From IMG/VR virus record IMGVR_UViG_3300027771_000117, positions 1 to 22,245 of that record: a stretch of 22,245 nucleotides of DNA; one strand, written 5' to 3'. The DNA is from a virus. Shown one piece after another: positions 1-19,647 of the stretch (positions within the stretch are counted from its first letter, which is position 1; every line of letters starts with the position of its first letter). A program made the translations under genes and the position numbers. Under the pieces are notes generated by a model, which was given only the letters and a program-made list of their open reading frames with translations, did not search any database and was not told the origin of the DNA.

Positions 1-8
1 TCGATTAG

Positions 9-23
9 TAATCATATTGATTA
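9..23. repeat. Short perfect palindrome
   Basis: TAATCA at 9-14 and TGATTA at 18-23 are perfect inverted arms around a 3-base spacer. It could be a small protein-binding site near the genome end. Palindromes this short and AT-rich also arise by chance, so no function is assigned. Confidence 0.3.
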
Positions 24-181
24 CCTCGGACATAAGGCTATTAGATTGTCGATTGGCAGCTTAAGAAAGAAAAAAAAGCACCCTACGTACAGACACAATG
101 GCTAATGATGATGAGTGAGATGTTCTAGGACATGGCACTTATCAATGGCATTGGTTGTAACTTGTAGGATGCTTAGGGTCT

Positions 182-280
182 TACTTACTTAGTTATCTAT
201 GATGGATATGACGTAGAGAGATACTATAGATAACCTATAGATATACTTACTTAGTTATCTATGATGGTAATAACGTAGAG
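182..280. repeat. Two 37-bp imperfect direct repeats, 62-bp period
   Basis: Copy 1 is 182-218 and copy 2 is 244-280. The first 24 bases are identical, then 5 mostly different bases, then the shared ACGTAGAG, so 34 of 37 positions match. Each copy also carries an inverted pair: GTTATCTAT (192-200) with ATAGATAAC (226-234), and GTTATCT (254-260) with AGATAAC (280-286). Repeats next to the terminal repeat are known in T7 (SRL and SRR), and the position after the terminase gene fits that comparison. The motif itself is not the T7 one. A role in packaging or terminus formation is an inference. Confidence 0.75.
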
Positions 281-363
281 ATAACTTTGAGGCATACTAA
301 AGATACCCTAGGGTTGTTCTTATACCTATCAACCCTATAGGGCAACTTAATTAATTGTGCCAT
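259..363 (-). CDS. Possible 34-residue peptide after terminase (weak)
   Basis: An ATG at 363 opens a 34-codon frame ending in TAG at 259-261. A GGAAA motif lies about 9 bases upstream of the ATG. It occupies the place of T7 gene 19.5, a small protein between the large terminase and the right terminal repeat. The residues (MAQLIKLPYRVDRYKNNPR at the start) show no resemblance to gp19.5 that I can see. The frame runs straight through the phage promoter and one direct repeat. It may well be fortuitous, because a 34-codon frame is unremarkable in AT-rich DNA. Confidence 0.15.
   Translation of the reverse strand: MAQLIKLPYRVDRYKNNPRVSLVCLKVISTLLPS
306..342 (-). other. Hairpin overlapping the right-end promoter start site
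   Basis: CCCTAGGGTTG (306-316) and CAACCCTATAGGG (330-342) are inverted arms with a 2-base bulge and a 13-base loop. Read on the minus strand, the arms are followed by a weak pyrimidine tract only (TATCTTTAG), so it is a poor intrinsic terminator for the terminase transcript. A transcript starting at the predicted +1 (335) would begin GGGUUG and could fold at once with CAACCC. That would give a 5' stem-loop. Confidence 0.5.
336..352 (-). promoter_or_regulatory. Phage RNA polymerase promoter, phi-OR-like
   Basis: On the minus strand positions 352-336 read AATTAAGTTGCCCTATA, followed by GGG at 335-333 as the likely start. Fifteen bases (336-350) are identical to the site at 19631-19645. By my own alignment it matches the SP6 promoter at 12 of 17 positions and the T7 promoter at 10 of 17, including the CTATA block before the start. 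It sits about 45 bp after the large terminase stop, facing away from the gene, as T7 phi-OR does. In T7 phi-OR lies at the right genome end and is linked to replication and concatemer processing. The cognate polymerase gene is not in this window. Confidence 0.7.
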
Positions 364-397
364 ATATGGGCGTTTCCAGCGTGGCTTCAGAGCAACG

Positions 398-2062
398 TCA
401 GAACCACTTATCGCCTACAGATTTCTTACCACCAACAGCTTGGTCCATGAACCTCTGTATCTCCCCATTGAAAGCATCGAGCTTCTGTTGGGCAGCTATA
501 GTCTCTGAGTCCGCATCCATCTGTTCAGTCCAGTAGTTCACTGCCATCGCTAGAGCTTCTAATCTATCGTCATGGATGATTGCACCACGGTCTTTAGTCA
601 GCCTAGTCATCTGGTAGAACAAACTGTACGAAGGTTCTGGAGCACTCTCGTAGTCTTCCTTAATCAGCTTCTCGTCAATGATAAGACGGTGCTGCATCAT
701 CACAGGTTCAAGCGTATCGATGATACGGACTTCCTTCTGTGTGTTATGTCTGACTTCTTCTATGGATACAGGGTAGGCCTTGTTCACGAATGGAGATAAT
801 AGTTTGGAGAACATACCGTCACCAAAGTTACTCTCTACCACTATCATGCTGACCTTCTCTATCTTCGCTAGGTTCGCTAGTTTGGTTAGAGTCTTGTCAT
901 CATAGCCACCTTTGAAACCACCACACTGGGTAGCGTAGAGATAACCATTCAACATCTTAACGACTGCATAGGCTGTCTCGTCCTTACCACGACCAGAAGG
1001 GTCAATAGCAAGTACAGCACCTGTGTACTCGTACATCTCATCAGAGAACCACATGGGTCTATAGAACTTGTCACCAGTGAAGCCCACAACAGGGACATCT
1101 TGGACAATCTGTGCAGGTCCAGAGGCCCACGCTAGGTCAGCCCAACCCTTCCTAGGGTTAAGTGCAGCTACGCATAGGTCAGATAGTTTCAATGGATACT
1201 TATCAGCATCAGATAGTGTTGTGTCCAGCATGAATTGCAGTGCAAAACCTGCCTTACCATAGGAAGCTTCACGCTCCATTAGGTCTATCTTAGTGAATCT
1301 ATCAGGTTCTGTAGGCATACCCTGCTGGTCGGCTCTACGATGCTCTATGAAGGGCGCTAATCTTCCTTGATACATTGCCGCTTGCTTGTCTGTAGGATAG
1401 CGAGAGGGCCATATACGTATCTCATAGCCACGTTCTGGGAGCAGGTTATAGATGGACATCTCAGTCTGTGGAGTACCTAGGTAAATCACACGTCCATTGG
1501 GCTTAAGAACAGCGTCAAACTCCTTGATTGCCTCGGATAACTTGTCACGCATAGTCTGGGTAGCAGAGTTGTTACTAACCTCCACGTCATCAGCGATTAT
1601 TGTGTTAGCACGAGAACCTGTGAGCTGGCCGTTGATACCCACTGACTTAACGCTTGGGGAATGGTCGGGTAATGAAGGCCCAACATCAAAAGCAATGACA
1701 GAATCACGCTGACCATTTTTAGTTCTAAGGTGTGAGAGTATTTCGATTTCATTAATAAGGCGCTTAGTAAAGGTAGAGAAGGCATCAGCACGTTCTTTAG
1801 AAGCTGATACTACGAGAATCTTGTGTTGAGGGTCACAGTAAAGAAGCCACACCACGTATGCTGAAGTAATCCAAGACTTTCCTATACCACGGAAGGCTTC
1901 TACCACGCAGCGCCTAGGGCCTGTCTGTAGATAACTACCCATGTCGTACTGGATTGGTGTGGGGTCTGGTAGATTTAGAGTGGACCATACTATCCATAGG
2001 AACTTACGGAAGTCTTTCTTGATTGGGTCGTTGTCTACCAGAGTAGTATTAGGTGTAGCCAT
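398..2062 (-). CDS. Large terminase subunit (DNA packaging ATPase/nuclease), T7 gp19-like
   Basis: This 554-residue protein is the packaging motor. Its ATPase drives DNA through the portal and its nuclease cuts the concatemer. It closely resembles T7 gp19 across its length. Visible landmarks are Walker A AFRGIGKS (56-63), the coupling segment SASKERADA (87-95), Walker B IIADDVE (155-161), and the nuclease acidic residues in AIDPSGRGKDE (352-362, Asp354), Glu410 in VVESNFGDG, and HDDR (497-500). The stretch RDSVIAFDVGPSLPDHSPSV (119-138) is nearly the T7 one. The start is preceded by AGGT five bases upstream and lies 7 bases after the small terminase stop, so the two are probably cotranslated. 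It is the last confident gene of the late block. Confidence 0.98.
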   Translation of the reverse strand: MATPNTTLVDNDPIKKDFRKFLWIVWSTLNLPDPTPIQYDMGSYLQTGPRRCVVEAFRGIGKSWITSAYVVWLLYCDPQHKILVVSASKERADAFSTFTKRLINEIEILSHLRTKNGQRDSVIAFDVGPSLPDHSPSVKSVGINGQLTGSRANTIIADDVEVSNNSATQTMRDKLSEAIKEFDAVLKPNGRVIYLGTPQTEMSIYNLLPERGYEIRIWPSRYPTDKQAAMYQGRLAPFIEHRRADQQGMPTEPDRFTKIDLMEREASYGKAGFALQFMLDTTLSDADKYPLKLSDLCVAALNPRKGWADLAWASGPAQIVQDVPVVGFTGDKFYRPMWFSDEMYEYTGAVLAIDPSGRGKDETAYAVVKMLNGYLYATQCGGFKGGYDDKTLTKLANLAKIEKVSMIVVESNFGDGMFSKLLSPFVNKAYPVSIEEVRHNTQKEVRIIDTLEPVMMQHRLIIDEKLIKEDYESAPEPSYSLFYQMTRLTKDRGAIIHDDRLEALAMAVNYWTEQMDADSETIAAQQKLDAFNGEIQRFMDQAVGGKKSVGDKWF

Positions 2063-2069
2063 AGGTTAC

Positions 2070-2300
2070 CTAGTGATTAAGTGGAAGTTCGTCTTCATCA
2101 AAGTCAGGAAGAGCGTGTATAAGGTTATCTAGTGGATTCCCTTGGGTAGGGACACCATCTATACCGTTGTCTTTAAGAAACTGACGGGCTACGTTAAGAA
2201 TACTTGCGGTAGTGTCGCCAGCCATGACCTGCCCTAGCAATTGGTTAGCTAACTCCTCGTGGAGTTCGGACATTATTTGGTCCAATCTTTTGTTACTCAT
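2070..2300 (-). CDS. Small terminase subunit, T7 gp18-like
   Basis: The 76-residue acidic protein would recognise concatemeric DNA and work with the large subunit. It has an alpha-helical N-terminus, a segment TASILNVARQFLKDNGID (residues 31-48) typical of the short small terminases of T7-like marine podoviruses, and an acidic end (DFDEDELP). T7 gp18 is 89 residues. The start codon overlaps the stop of the upstream holin gene as ATGA, and AAAGGA lies 8 bases before the ATG. Its position directly before the large subunit supports the call more than any single motif. Confidence 0.85.
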   Translation of the reverse strand: MSNKRLDQIMSELHEELANQLLGQVMAGDTTASILNVARQFLKDNGIDGVPTQGNPLDNLIHALPDFDEDELPLNH

Positions 2301-2692
2301 TTCGTGAGTCCTTTTGCTTTCTCATACGAGCGTAGTCCACCTAAACCTAGGAGTGCCATAACGAGTGATGAGAGTTCTGCTGCTTGAATAGCTGGTAGTT
2401 CTGCTGGAAGTGCATAGTAAGCGTTGATAAGTCCAGCAAAGGGTAGGATAAGGAACTGGTAACCTAAACCAATTGCACATACCCAGCCTATTGCAGGTCT
2501 CCAGCCAGCCACGAACACGGAGCTATGTTTAGCACCTTCGATGTTTGCCATCGCTTGTAAGTTGTGGGGTTTCTGGAGAAGTTCAGTCATCTTCAGAGTA
2601 GCATTTGCCTTCTCTTCATCAGATGTGAACAGGTCATCAAGACCTTCCATGACACTCCCTGCAATCCCAGCGAAGGGATTGAGAGAGTTCAT
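2297..2692 (-). CDS. Holin, three-transmembrane type
   Basis: This 131-residue membrane protein probably forms the lesions in the inner membrane that start lysis. After a charged N-terminus (about 1-58) come hydrophobic segments around 59-77 (VFVAGWRPAIGWVCAIGLG), 78-92 (YQFLILPFAGLINAY) and 104-121 (AAELSSLVMALLGLGGLR), ending in the basic SYEKAKGLTK. The pattern FVAGWRPAIGW with a late LLGLGGLRSYEK resembles the family named Holin of 3TMs, for gene-transfer release. AAGGT lies 6 bases before the start. In T7 the holin (gp17.5) also sits between the fiber gene and the small terminase. Confidence 0.85.
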   Translation of the reverse strand: MNSLNPFAGIAGSVMEGLDDLFTSDEEKANATLKMTELLQKPHNLQAMANIEGAKHSSVFVAGWRPAIGWVCAIGLGYQFLILPFAGLINAYYALPAELPAIQAAELSSLVMALLGLGGLRSYEKAKGLTK

Positions 2693-2706
2693 AGTTTTAC
2701 CTTATG

Positions 2707-2928
2707 TTATAGAGCGGCTAGCTTAAGAATACCCATAAGACCTATCTGGTCTGCGAATACAACACCACCAGCGCCTACGGCAATCCATTTGATTTGCCTT
2801 AGTAGTTCGATGATGGAGTCTAGGGTTAGTTTAAGTTCGCCAGAAGTTTGTTTGAGGATGGTGATTTCACTATCGTGACTATCAACGCGCCACGTGAGCT
2901 TAGTCACCTCTTCTTTAAGCTGTTCCAT
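2707..2928 (-). CDS. Small coiled-coil/membrane protein, XhlA-like holin partner
   Basis: The 73-residue protein has a charged heptad-like N-terminal half (residues 2-46, LKEEVTKLTWRVDSHDSEI and onward) and a hydrophobic C-terminal tail from about 47 (IKWIAVGAGGVVFADQIG, then LMGILKLAAL). A cytoplasmic coiled coil followed by a C-terminal membrane anchor is the plan of XhlA-type proteins, which work with holins. It lies 14 bases before the holin gene and has GAAGG upstream of its ATG. Alternatives are an antiholin or a second holin. An inner-membrane spanin is unlikely, because that has the membrane segment at the N-terminus. Confidence 0.6.
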   Translation of the reverse strand: MEQLKEEVTKLTWRVDSHDSEITILKQTSGELKLTLDSIIELLRQIKWIAVGAGGVVFADQIGLMGILKLAAL

Positions 2929-2965
2929 TGTTTAAGCCTTCGTTGAACCTGATAATGTGTGTACA

Positions 2966-3313
2966 TCACGCCTGCAAAACCCAAGATTTTGTAGGCTCAT
3001 CCCATGTGTACTCCAAGCTATCTGTTGGATAAGGCGTAGGGGGTTCCCATTGGCAGGAGTCCTCTACAAGTACCCAAGAAGGGAATGGCTTCGGGGCCAT
3101 AAATGCGTCCCTATCGTGGTCATAGGTATCGCCAATAGACGCATAATTCTTCCTAAGCGGAACGCCTTCTAGTAGATGAATACCGCCTTGCGTATTGTAT
3201 GAGGTTTGTAGCCACATGCCTGCCGAATCATCGATGAAGGTGTCAAAGAACTCTTGCTCTGCGACAATGACGTGCGTGACAGTGCCACATAGAACTTTAG
3301 CAAAGTGAGACAT
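2966..3313 (-). CDS. Conserved hypothetical protein of marine phages (MSHFAKV family)
   Basis: This 115-residue protein belongs to a family I recall as common in marine and cyanobacterial phages, usually annotated hypothetical. Its landmarks are MSHFAKV at the N-terminus, THVIVAEQEFFD (13-24), WLQTSYNTQGG (34-44), LRKNYASIGDTYD (53-65), DAFMAPKPFPSWVL (69-82) and a Trp-rich end with YTWDEPTKSW. It has no signal peptide or membrane segment. AAAGGAA six bases before the ATG supports the start. It follows the two fiber genes closely, so a role on or near the fiber is possible, but no function is established from the sequence. Confidence 0.8.
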   Translation of the reverse strand: MSHFAKVLCGTVTHVIVAEQEFFDTFIDDSAGMWLQTSYNTQGGIHLLEGVPLRKNYASIGDTYDHDRDAFMAPKPFPSWVLVEDSCQWEPPTPYPTDSLEYTWDEPTKSWVLQA

Positions 3314-3328: not shown

Positions 3329-4960
3329 TTATAATGTGTAAGAGCCTGAGCCAGTGAATTTAACTATCGTGTCTGACCCTGATGTACTCACGGAGACACT
3401 GCCAGAGGAAGTGCCTGAGTAACTGGCTGTTGGCATTCTTAAAATCACTACACCAGAACCACCGCTTCTTTTAGCGCCACCACCTTGTCCACTATTAGCT
3501 GCTCCTGTTCCACTTCCCGGGGAACCTCCTTGGCTATAGACTACACTTGAACCTGTGATACTGTTGGAGACACCTGCGCCAGCAGAGTTAAGTGAACCAG
3601 AGCCTCCTGCTCCACCTCCACCACCACCATTATAAGGAGAGCCAGCTTTTCCGTATCCTCCACTGTTACCTTGCCCAAAGACTCCTGAGTTGTTGTTGGT
3701 TTCAGCCGCTGTATAACCAGCGTTACCCCCACCTGACCCTCCTGAGAGACCCCAGCGCCAGGTATAAGGTATACCACCACCACCACCGCCACCCATGGAG
3801 CTCTTATTCAGCTCACCGCTTGTGACAGAGCTGCCACCACCACTGTTACCATTGTTTCCGGTTGTGGAAGAACCACCTGCACCCACAACTATGCTTAGAA
3901 CAATGCCTACTGTAACAGTCTGAGTACCTGCTAAATAACCACCAGCACCGCCTCCGCCCATTCTAGAACGTGACTGGTTCGCGTTGGGACTACCACCACC
4001 ACCACCACCGCCTGCGGCAACTAAATAGGTCAGGTCAAACGTATCAGGTCCTACAGTTTTCCATGTGAAACTACCGTCACCGTCAGACCGTAGAAACTCA
4101 TCATTAGCACCATTACCTGATACATTTAGATGGGCTGCATCAATGCTGTTGTCAACGTAGTGCTGAGAGTTAATAAGATTGTTGGAAATGCTAGAGCTGC
4201 TCACAACAGCAGAAGGCCCCGTAGCTCCTGTATTGCCTTGAGGGCCTGTATTACCTGTGGGTCCTGTGTTGCCTTGAGGGCCTTGAGCGCCCGTGGAACC
4301 TGTATTACCAGTGTTGCCTGTGGGACCTACACCACCAGAAGGACCTGTAGAACCTGTAGGACCTGTGCCACCTTGAGGACCAACAGTACCTTGAGAACCT
4401 GTAGCACCTTGAGAACCTGTTAAGCCTGTAGCACCTTGAGGCCCTGTAGAACCTGTAGGTCCTTGTTCGCCATCATCTCCATCTGCACCAGCGTTACCTT
4501 GAGGGCCAGTAGTACCAGTGTTTCCTTGAGAACCAGTAGGACCCGTAGAACCAGTAGGACCCGTTGGGCCATCATCACCGATAGGACCTTGAGCACCTGT
4601 GGAGCCTGTGTTTCCTGTAGGACCTGTGCCTCCAGTTGAACCAGTGGGGCCTGTGTTACCTGTTGGTCCTTGAGAACCTACATCACCTTCAATTCCTTGA
4701 GAGCCTGTAGCTCCAGTAGAACCTGTATTACCTTGTGGGCCTTGTGAGCCTGTAGCTCCTGTAGAACCTGAGTTACCCTTTGCTGCCATTAGCTGCCACA
4801 CGGCTGCTTGAGCCGAAGGGACAGTGCCAGCAGCAGAGTCTTGTAGTGCTGCGTATGAAGCGCCATTGTATTCAACAGCATCAAAGGTTTCGTAAGCTGT
4901 CGCAGAGGACCACTGGCCTTTCCATGCGATACGTACCTTACCTATATTTAAAGTTGGCAT
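3329..4960 (-). CDS. Collagen-like tail fiber with glycine-rich adhesin end
   Basis: The 543-residue protein has four parts. Residues 1-60 hold W-x(7)-Y-x(4)[13 protein letters not shown], a pattern like the small carbohydrate-binding-type modules seen in phage fibers. Residues 62-248 are 63 uninterrupted Gly-X-Y triplets, often GPT, GNT, GST or GPQ, which should form a collagen triple helix. Residues 252-310 are a linker with [14 protein letters not shown]. Residues 311-508 are a glycine-rich domain, [12 protein letters not shown] to GSGVVILRM. Domains like this form stacked polyglycine II helices and expose receptor-binding loops in phage adhesins. A short beta-like tail follows. The ATG overlaps the upstream fiber stop as TAATG, so the two are translationally coupled. 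It is probably the distal receptor-binding part. Confidence 0.85.
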
Positions 4961-6249
4961 TAGATTGTCACCTCTAGTTCACCGTTAGAATTTATTGAGA
5001 AGTCTTGGTCTGCTGCGCTACCGTAATATTCGATAGTGAGCATTCCTGTTGTTGGGTCCATGTGGAACTTACCGAAGGCGAGGCCTAATGCAGTAGGTCC
5101 CATAGAACCTGTTGGTCCTAGTGAACCTGTAGGGCCTAGTGGACCTTGGTCACCATCTGGGCCTTTGTTACCTAAGTCTCCTTGAATACCTTGAGGACCG
5201 TCTGGGCCTAGTGGTCCTGTAGAACCTGTTGGTCCTTGTGAGCCTGTAGCTCCTAATGGACCGTCACCACCAACAGGGCCTTGAGAACCTGTCAGACCAG
5301 TTGGGCCTTGTTGACCTGCCTCGCCTGTTGGACCCATAGGGCCATCCCCACCTTCGGGGCCTTGTGAACCTGTGCCACCTGTAGCACCTAAAGGACCTTC
5401 GTCACCAACAACACCTTGAAGACCTGTTGGTCCTACTGGGCCTGTTGTTCCACGAGGACCTTGGTCTCCTGTGACACCTTGGTCTCCTACAGCACCTGTG
5501 TTACCAAGTTCACCTTGAATACCACGAGGGCCTTCAGGACCTATAACACCTTGAGGACCGTTTGGACCTTGAGGACCTGTAACACCTGTTGGGCCTGTAG
5601 CTCCTACGGGGCCTTGGGGACCTTCAGATAGAGAGAAGGTAAGCTCACCAGTGTTTGCATCGTATGCCACAGAACCTGTAGCTCCGTATGGAAGTGATGT
5701 TAAATGAGTGGTTAAGCCATAAAGCTCATCACGTATCTGAGTAACGTCACTAGCTTTGATGATTACATCAGTGTGCTTAGTTACTATGTCTGAATGTCGT
5801 GTGATTACATCTGTACTCACGCCATCAGCGTAAGCTTTAGTTACTGCATCATTGTCCTCAGTAGGTGTAGGTAGGTTAGTTAAGCGCCTACCTTCAGCAT
5901 CGAAGATACCTTCGGGGGTTAACTTAATTGCTTCATCAGCAGCATCAAAAGCTTCTTGAGCTAGATGAAATAGCTGACTACTATCTGCGTCTAGTGTTGA
6001 TTCGTTAAGTACCGAGCCGTCTTGGAAATCCACATTACGTGAGGTGCGGTTGGTTACTCGTCTTATGTCTACCACAGAGCTTGTTGAAGGCGCTGTAGTA
6101 ATGGATATTCGGCTTGAATCAAGCCATGTGAATGGACTAGCTGTTCCATCAACTGTAACTACTACATCATCTTGAGATAGATATAGGAAGGACACATTGA
6201 AGGTCGAAGTAGTTCCGTCACCTGTGTAGTGCACAAAGGATAAGGCCAT
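4960..6249 (-). CDS. Tail fiber, T7 gp17-like N-terminus with collagen-like shaft
   Basis: This 429-residue protein carries the T7 gp17-type tail-attachment domain at residues 1-110. Its landmarks are the [17 protein letters not shown] start, [20 protein letters not shown] (62-81) and [18 protein letters not shown] helical linker (about 130-190) follows. Residues 210-384 are 59 uninterrupted Gly-X-Y triplets, and about 45 residues close the chain. It lacks the pyramid and tip domains of T7 gp17 (553 residues), so it probably serves as the proximal anchor and shaft. It starts just after a terminator and has only a weak GAGA ribosome site. It is coupled by TAATG to the second fiber gene. Confidence 0.92.
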
Positions 6250-6280
6250 AGCGTTTCTCTATGTTTTAAATATTGGGGAT

Positions 6281-6305
6281 AAAAGAAACCCCTCGATTGA
6301 GGGGC
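6281..6305 (-). terminator. Intrinsic terminator between internal virion protein and fiber genes
   Basis: On the minus strand a perfect 6-bp stem, CCCCTC-AATC-GAGGGG (6304-6289), is followed by TTTCTTTT (6288-6281). There is no U-tract on the plus-strand side, so it acts on the late transcript only. It lies 11 bases after the stop of the large internal virion gene and 32 bases before the fiber start. T7 has no terminator at this place. Confidence 0.85.
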
Positions 6306-6315
6306 TTAAGGTTGG

Positions 6316-15696: not shown

Positions 15697-15717
15697 GGTA
15701 GTGAATCCTTAAAAATG

Positions 15718-15742
15718 AAAAAAAGGGGAACCGAAGTTCCCC
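15718..15742 (-). terminator. Strong intrinsic terminator after the capsid gene (T-phi position)
   Basis: On the minus strand GGGGAAC-TTCG-GTTCCCC (15742-15725) is a perfect 7-bp stem with a UUCG tetraloop. It is followed by seven T (15724-15718), then C, A and five more T. It lies directly after the major capsid gene, exactly where T7 has T-phi. T-phi stops most but not all late transcription, so that capsid protein exceeds tail protein. The plus-strand side has no U-tract. Confidence 0.95.
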
Positions 15743-15748
15743 AATTGT

Positions 15749-15767
15749 GTTTCTATAAGTTAGAAAC
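15749..15767 (-). other. Second hairpin just before the capsid terminator
   Basis: GTTTCTA (15749-15755) and TAGAAAC (15761-15767) form a perfect 7-bp AT-rich stem with a 5-base loop. It lies between the capsid stop codon and the strong terminator. It has no U-tract. It might protect the 3' end of the capsid message or be a processing site. It is weaker than the terminator stem beside it. Confidence 0.45.
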
Positions 15768-15778
15768 TTACTTACTGA

Positions 15779-19620: not shown

Positions 19621-19630
19621 AAGACTTCCT

Positions 19631-19647
19631 TATAGGGCAACTTAAAA
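19631..19647 (-). promoter_or_regulatory. Phage RNA polymerase promoter for the head operon
   Basis: On the minus strand positions 19647-19631 read TTTTAAGTTGCCCTATA, followed by AGGAAG. Fifteen bases are identical to the site at 336-350. It fills the gap between the phoH stop (19648-19650) and the first head gene. By T7 spacing the start would be A at 19630, as in T7 phi-2.5, which also starts with A followed by GG. The leader would then be only about 10 bases, with the ribosome site at its very 5' end. Two matching copies at functionally sensible places are the main evidence. Confidence 0.75.

Follow-up and report, generated by a model that had tools for sequence, protein, structure and literature searches.

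A tandem duplication in the AT-rich leader of a putative right-end promoter in an uncultivated T7-like phage lineage

In a stretch of DNA of 22,245 bases (the window) from a marine virus, the leader of a T7-type right-end promoter, beyond the terminase large subunit gene, has undergone a tandem duplication, which is real and limited to one lineage. The anatomy of this region, namely a promoter, two repeat units, a terminator and a layout towards the genome end, was very probably recognised correctly. Judged from its sequence, the duplication may belong to an AT-rich leader of a phiOR-type promoter that serves replication priming or end maturation, a tentative reading that is given somewhat less than an even chance.

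Late gene context and right-end promoter

The genes of the window lie on the minus strand and code for ribonucleotide reductase subunits, PhoH, head and tail proteins, two collagen-like proteins, a holin, the terminase small subunit (TerS; 2070-2300, minus strand; 76 residues; phrog_891, 3e-13) and the terminase large subunit (TerL; 398-2062, minus strand; translation and profile match). The nearest named relatives of the TerL gene at the DNA level were T7-like phages, including Roseobacter phages of the CRP group (about 64-68% identity). Neither a phage RNA polymerase gene nor a tRNA was found in the window. Because the late genes are on the minus strand and the units lie beyond TerL, the units are read on the minus strand. 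Among the other late genes, an adjoining pair (3329-4960 and 4960-6249, minus strand) encodes proteins with long collagen-like G-X-Y repeats, and a 73-residue protein (2707-2928, minus strand) matching phrog_1193 (3.1e-05), which carries the label hemolysin, is probably a lysis helper and not a toxin, given the adjoining holin.

A phiOR-type phage promoter (TTAAGTTGCCCTATAGGG; 333-350, minus strand) was recognised by its motif and its recurrence; it directly follows TerL and points to the right end, as phiOR does in T7. Its putative transcription start at 335 was placed by analogy with the T7 promoter layout, and a possible hairpin (GGGTTG/CAACCC; 311-335, minus strand; z -1.89) would form the 5' end of the transcript. 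A motif scan retrieved a second copy with AGG instead of GGG (19628-19645, minus strand), located between PhoH and the late gene that comes next; it is likely a late phage promoter. The pattern TTAAGTTGCCCTATARGG, written after both sites were known, occurred exactly twice in the window, in both cases intergenic and on the minus strand (shuffle mean 0.04). The promoter core differed between relatives (denoted by L numbers) but agreed within a genome: the two copies of the window read CCCTATA, the three of L096 AATTAATTAAATTGCATTATAG, the two each of L114 and L115 GCAAGTGTAGCACTATAG, and the two in the L006 record TTGCATTATA. The remainder of the 18 sequences scanned, the window included, had one matching copy each in the available DNA, and there were two off-motif matches (L107 at 8245 and L113 at 9472). 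In a subgroup of relatives (L114, L115, L116, L117, L118 and L005), the core TAGCACTATA replaces TTGC...ATA, which suggests that polymerase specificity has shifted.

Terminator hairpin past the units

Both the promoter and a terminator downstream of the units are well supported. The latter is a terminator-like hairpin (70-174, minus strand) with a base stem of 11 bp (174-164 paired with 86-76), a long apical part (77 bases) that is itself paired, and a run of eight T residues (77-70). Its minimum energy was -28.4 kcal/mol (z -4.8), and none of 200 shuffles folded as well. Ten genomes with this hairpin contained four distinct arm pairs, in which pairs 5, 7 and 8 of the 11 change on both sides, and non-pairing combinations also occur at pairs 10 and 11; since MAFFT left the terminator arms of five sequences out of register, a script that kept the arms aligned was used to tally the pairs. 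Class I (hairpin) terminators of phage RNA polymerases have a stable stem with a U run behind it, and the hairpin conforms to this description. A T-run terminator was not seen in L006, L007, L009 and L011, nor in the more distant L018-L035 rows. A simple terminator scan of positions 1-3000 gave no matches, since it allowed only loops of 3-8 bases; the hairpin was revealed by folding. The earlier note had proposed that the repeats could act as pausing signals for packaging: a pausing or termination signal is indeed nearby, but it is this hairpin with its T run (174-70) and not the units themselves. Elsewhere in the window, compact hairpins followed by T runs occur on the minus strand after the major capsid gene (15697-15778), which is the place of the capsid terminator in T7-like phages, and before the fibre gene (6250-6315).

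Direct repeat units

Self-comparison and a core scan delineated unit 1, the first past the promoter (244-305, core 244-280, minus strand), and unit 2 (182-243, core 182-218, minus strand). As had been noticed before, the cores match at 34 of 37 positions with a period of 62 bases; they have the same orientation, and the ungapped repeat score of positions 1-400 (30.5) exceeded that of all 100 dinucleotide shuffles (maximum 13.0). Across the full 62 bases, the units are 77% identical, the 37-base core being strongly kept and the adjoining 25-base spacer diverged.

The 124-base unit stretch has the lowest GC content of any segment of that size in the record (29.0% vs 45.1% GC). An AT-rich leader after the promoter is also a property of a T7-type phiOR. 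Positions +25 to +145 of the leader were in the lowest 10% GC of the available DNA in 15 of 22 family rows, which are mutually related, and not in the other seven. Non-coding DNA is often AT-rich. A T7 primase-type site, GGGTC, lies flush with unit 2 (176-180, plus strand); it is not conserved, as only 7 of the 21 family regions had GGGTC on the strand opposite the transcript.

The inverted arms ascribed to each unit were present, namely GTTATCT/AGATAAC of 7 bp in unit 1 (254-260/279-285, minus strand) and GTTATCTAT/ATAGATAAC of 9 bp in unit 2 (192-200/226-234, minus strand), so that the span reported for the whole element, 182-286, runs one base too far (the last arm base being 285). That the arms are more than chance was not borne out. 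Indeed, among 500 shuffles of positions 182-290, 199 contained perfect inverted repeats of 7 bp or longer and 19 contained such repeats of 9 bp or longer; with such frequencies, the arms are no clear evidence of anything.

These arms bear on the quite unlikely view that, in the phiOR transcript and at the 3' ends of late mRNAs, the units form stem-loops with a role in pausing, stability or regulation. The units are probably transcribed, as they lie between promoter and terminator, and a small hairpin is possible in each (z -2.69 and -1.67). In addition, elements at the corresponding place fold well in some distant relatives (L018, L024, L029, L031, L033 and L035; z -2.1 to -3.8), and L003 retains the 9-bp arms despite a changed sequence between them. 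Yet the leader RNA did not fold better than shuffles in the window (+25 to +160; z 0.06 sense, -1.27 antisense), in L096 (same stretch; z -0.49) or in L005, L006, L007, L009 and L020. Moreover, L005 has lost the right arm without compensation, and no Rfam family was recognised; two snoRNA matches (E 1.7 and 3.3) fell below the threshold and were ascribed to chance. Since the segment folded at shuffle level, RNA structure was dropped as the main reading for the units.

Spread among relatives

That the units would be absent from related phages was not observed: a 27-base unit pattern occurred in three IMG/VR records besides the window, all close relatives, with two units in L096, two units 73 bases apart in L101 (L003) and one unit in L107 (L002). 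With a 16-mer, 26 stretches of IMG/VR matched, and with the longer pattern three; the remainder were treated as chance. The units were not found in most family members in this pattern scan. Indeed, TerL of at least 84% identity was present at 39 loci (L002-L038, L047 and L080), some of whose contigs end early, and only the three other IMG/VR records contained units; hence, the units are not kept across relatives with a similar terminase, as a pac site would be. A scan for the 37-base core that allowed up to 14 mismatches covered 11 sequences, among them the DNA past the junction in L096 and L101, and gave two matches beyond the units, each with the maximum of 14 mismatches. The one in L113 (at 5653) was taken as chance, and the other is a half unit in L005, of which only the upstream half is present.

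The scope of the right-end comparisons was as follows. L004 was left out for want of a homologous right end after TerL; L017, L036-L038 and L039-L081 except L080 were outside the comparison, and near copies or too short sequences were left out of most counts (L008, L010, L014, L016, L019, L022, L025-L028, L030, L032 and L080), with L026 kept for the direct-repeat regions, L027 and L030 for the leader GC content, and L010 for the repeat-pair comparison. HTVC019P and CRP-804 were omitted from the right-end region comparison because other genes closely follow TerL, and the regions of CRP-125 and CRP-227 were cut at approximate places and not at a mapped end.

Repeats at the right end were not confined to the carriers of the units. 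L009 and L010 have a pair of their own (73% over 48 bases, 62 apart; an upstream part is 73 apart), and L033 has a direct-repeat pair 57 apart at the same spot. The two cores of the window are closer to each other than to those of L009. The right ends of L009 and L010 are near-identical and diverge about 280 bases in, after the repeat pair, which suggests gene insertions between leader and end.

Such variation makes a neutral, recent slippage duplication in a low-complexity AT-rich intergenic stretch, without a function of its own, a serious rival, albeit an unlikely one. Copy number varies, with two units in the window, L003 and L096 and one in L002; the units recur at 62 bases in the window and in L096, against 73 in L003, where the difference may reflect a further slippage of 11 bases; and a direct repeat scored above all 60 shuffles in 15 of 28 right-end regions, at various places of which only some are by the promoter. 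Neutrality accounts less well for a core that is kept while the rest of the unit diverged much further, and for the pair of L009 and L010, with the same 62-base period at the same place.

The same spacings could point to two DNA sites on one helix face for a packaging or end-maturation protein (TerS, as the earlier note had suggested, an accessory protein or a host protein such as IHF), a possibility that is improbable to a similar degree. The shared orientation, the kept core beside a diverged spacer and the location between TerL and the terminal repeat would fit such sites, as would a spacing difference of 11 bases, or about one helical turn, which recurs in L009 and L010 (62, and 73 for the upstream part). 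Against this, the spacing of 57 in L033 is out of phase, the 11 bases of L003 could be plain slippage of GGTTATCTATA according to the alignment, and the units were not found in most of the family by the pattern scan. Furthermore, a search of the left genome end for the same units, as the earlier note had advised, was negative: no further copy was found there or elsewhere in L096, L101 and L107 (up to 14 mismatches in 37).

Putative genome end and terminal repeat

The IMG/VR record is classed as linear, its 22,245 bases are those of the window, and base 1 is a contig break. Hence, a location of the units near the genome terminus holds only approximately, as the putative end in L096 lies about 360 bases further. 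Their placement past TerL, towards the right terminal repeat, was correct, and this stretch is the place of phiOR in T7. In L096, the units (924-1047) are followed by a T run at about 1150 and by a terminal-repeat-like element (AAAAATCTGTGG ... CCCCCATGGGGGG) at 1410, which would put the units about 360-490 bases before the start of the terminal repeat. L096 and L003 contain an element of AAAAATCTG ... CCCCC..GGGGG like that of T7; the window stops before such a point.

The T7 short repeats flanking the terminal repeat are named SRL and SRR. The units had been likened to them, but this comparison did not hold: repeats of the relatives in that region lie between the terminator and the terminal-repeat-like element, further out than the window reaches, and the units do not occur on both sides of the terminal repeat, none being present beyond the junction in L096 and L101 or elsewhere in L107. 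As a separate observation, window positions 8-24 (GTAATCATATTGATTAC) form an inverted repeat with arms of 7 bp and a loop of 3 bases. L096 and L003 share it, and both have a degenerate second version 79 bases further.

Possible role of the duplicated leader

The layout, as read from the letters of the DNA, comprises the promoter after TerL, the units about 30-150 bases past the inferred start, the covarying terminator and, in the relatives, the terminal-repeat-like element. A single-subunit phage RNA polymerase would start at about 335, transcribe the units and mostly stop at about 70, which would give a short non-coding transcript of some 265 bases. The doubled AT-rich leader would melt easily, so that the new RNA could stay paired or pass to DNA polymerase as a primer, as at an OR-type origin; T7 phiOR is taken here to be a secondary replication origin. 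Polymerase traffic would be halted before the concatemer junction, where terminase works. Doubling of the leader may lengthen the easily melted stretch or may double a protein site. An origin or end-maturation role of the units is therewith conceivable, with chances below even; L002, which manages with a single unit copy, speaks against it, as do the restriction of the units to the window and three other IMG/VR records, the seven family rows that lack a low-GC leader and the scarcity of GGGTC in the family.

It would be a long shot that the terminated RNA of about 265 bases, or two helically phased protein sites, replace the junction pausing of T7, the right end being marked for terminase and the terminator keeping the polymerase off the junction. 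The start of replication at the right end and the hand-over of concatemers to terminase are poorly known in T7-like phages other than coliphages. If true, a repeatedly doubled leader and a covarying terminator before the junction would offer a natural comparison for the T7 pausing model. The present value lies mainly in annotation of the promoter, leader, terminator and putative end of an uncultivated lineage. The titles and abstracts retrieved contained no description of such units or of a terminated phiOR RNA in such phages, and a search on the T3 pac site gave nothing relevant.

Comparison with known systems

In both T7 (NC_001604) and T3 (NC_003298), a phage promoter directly follows the TerL gene, as in the window. 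T7 also shares the AT-rich phiOR leader (+25 to +145, 31.7% GC) and has a AAAAATCTG element followed by a CCCCC..GGGGG stretch at the terminal repeat; AAAAATCTGAG immediately precedes this repeat, and CCCCCATAGGGGG lies right inside it. Unlike the window, with its units and hairpin terminator, T7 and T3 have a small gene at this place (19.5 in T7) and no strong direct repeat near phiOR.

The Pseudomonas phage LUZ100 (OP329100) has an annotated promoter (phi8) directly after TerL, and terminators (T20-T22). Its terminal repeat measures 244 bases and has CCCCC..GGGG close to where it begins; between this repeat and the promoter, 18 bases recur as a direct repeat at a distance of 84. However, the repeat sequence is unrelated, small genes are annotated, and the terminators are at other places.

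Packaging of T7 starts when the polymerase, together with gp3.5, pauses at the concatemer junction and contacts gp18 and gp19 (PMC3276506); a terminator ahead of the junction, as in the layout proposed here, departs from that description. A class II pause word, ATCTGTT, is named for the concatemer junction (PMC11617373); it did not occur on the late strand of L096, L101, L107, L115 and L006, of which L107 stops short of the junction. Given the pausing of the T7 polymerase at the junction and this lack of the pause word in the relatives, the terminator ahead of the junction is the most distinctive feature.

The primary origin of T7 contains an A/T-rich cluster (3761-3821) with GGGTC inside (PMC12839067), to which the GGGTC flush with the AT-rich units is comparable; the T7 origin differs in its genome position. 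The AT-richness of the unit stretch, of the T7 phiOR leader and of this origin cluster together favour an element of the phiOR kind. As a whole, the region is a modest variation on the known T7-like right-end layout.
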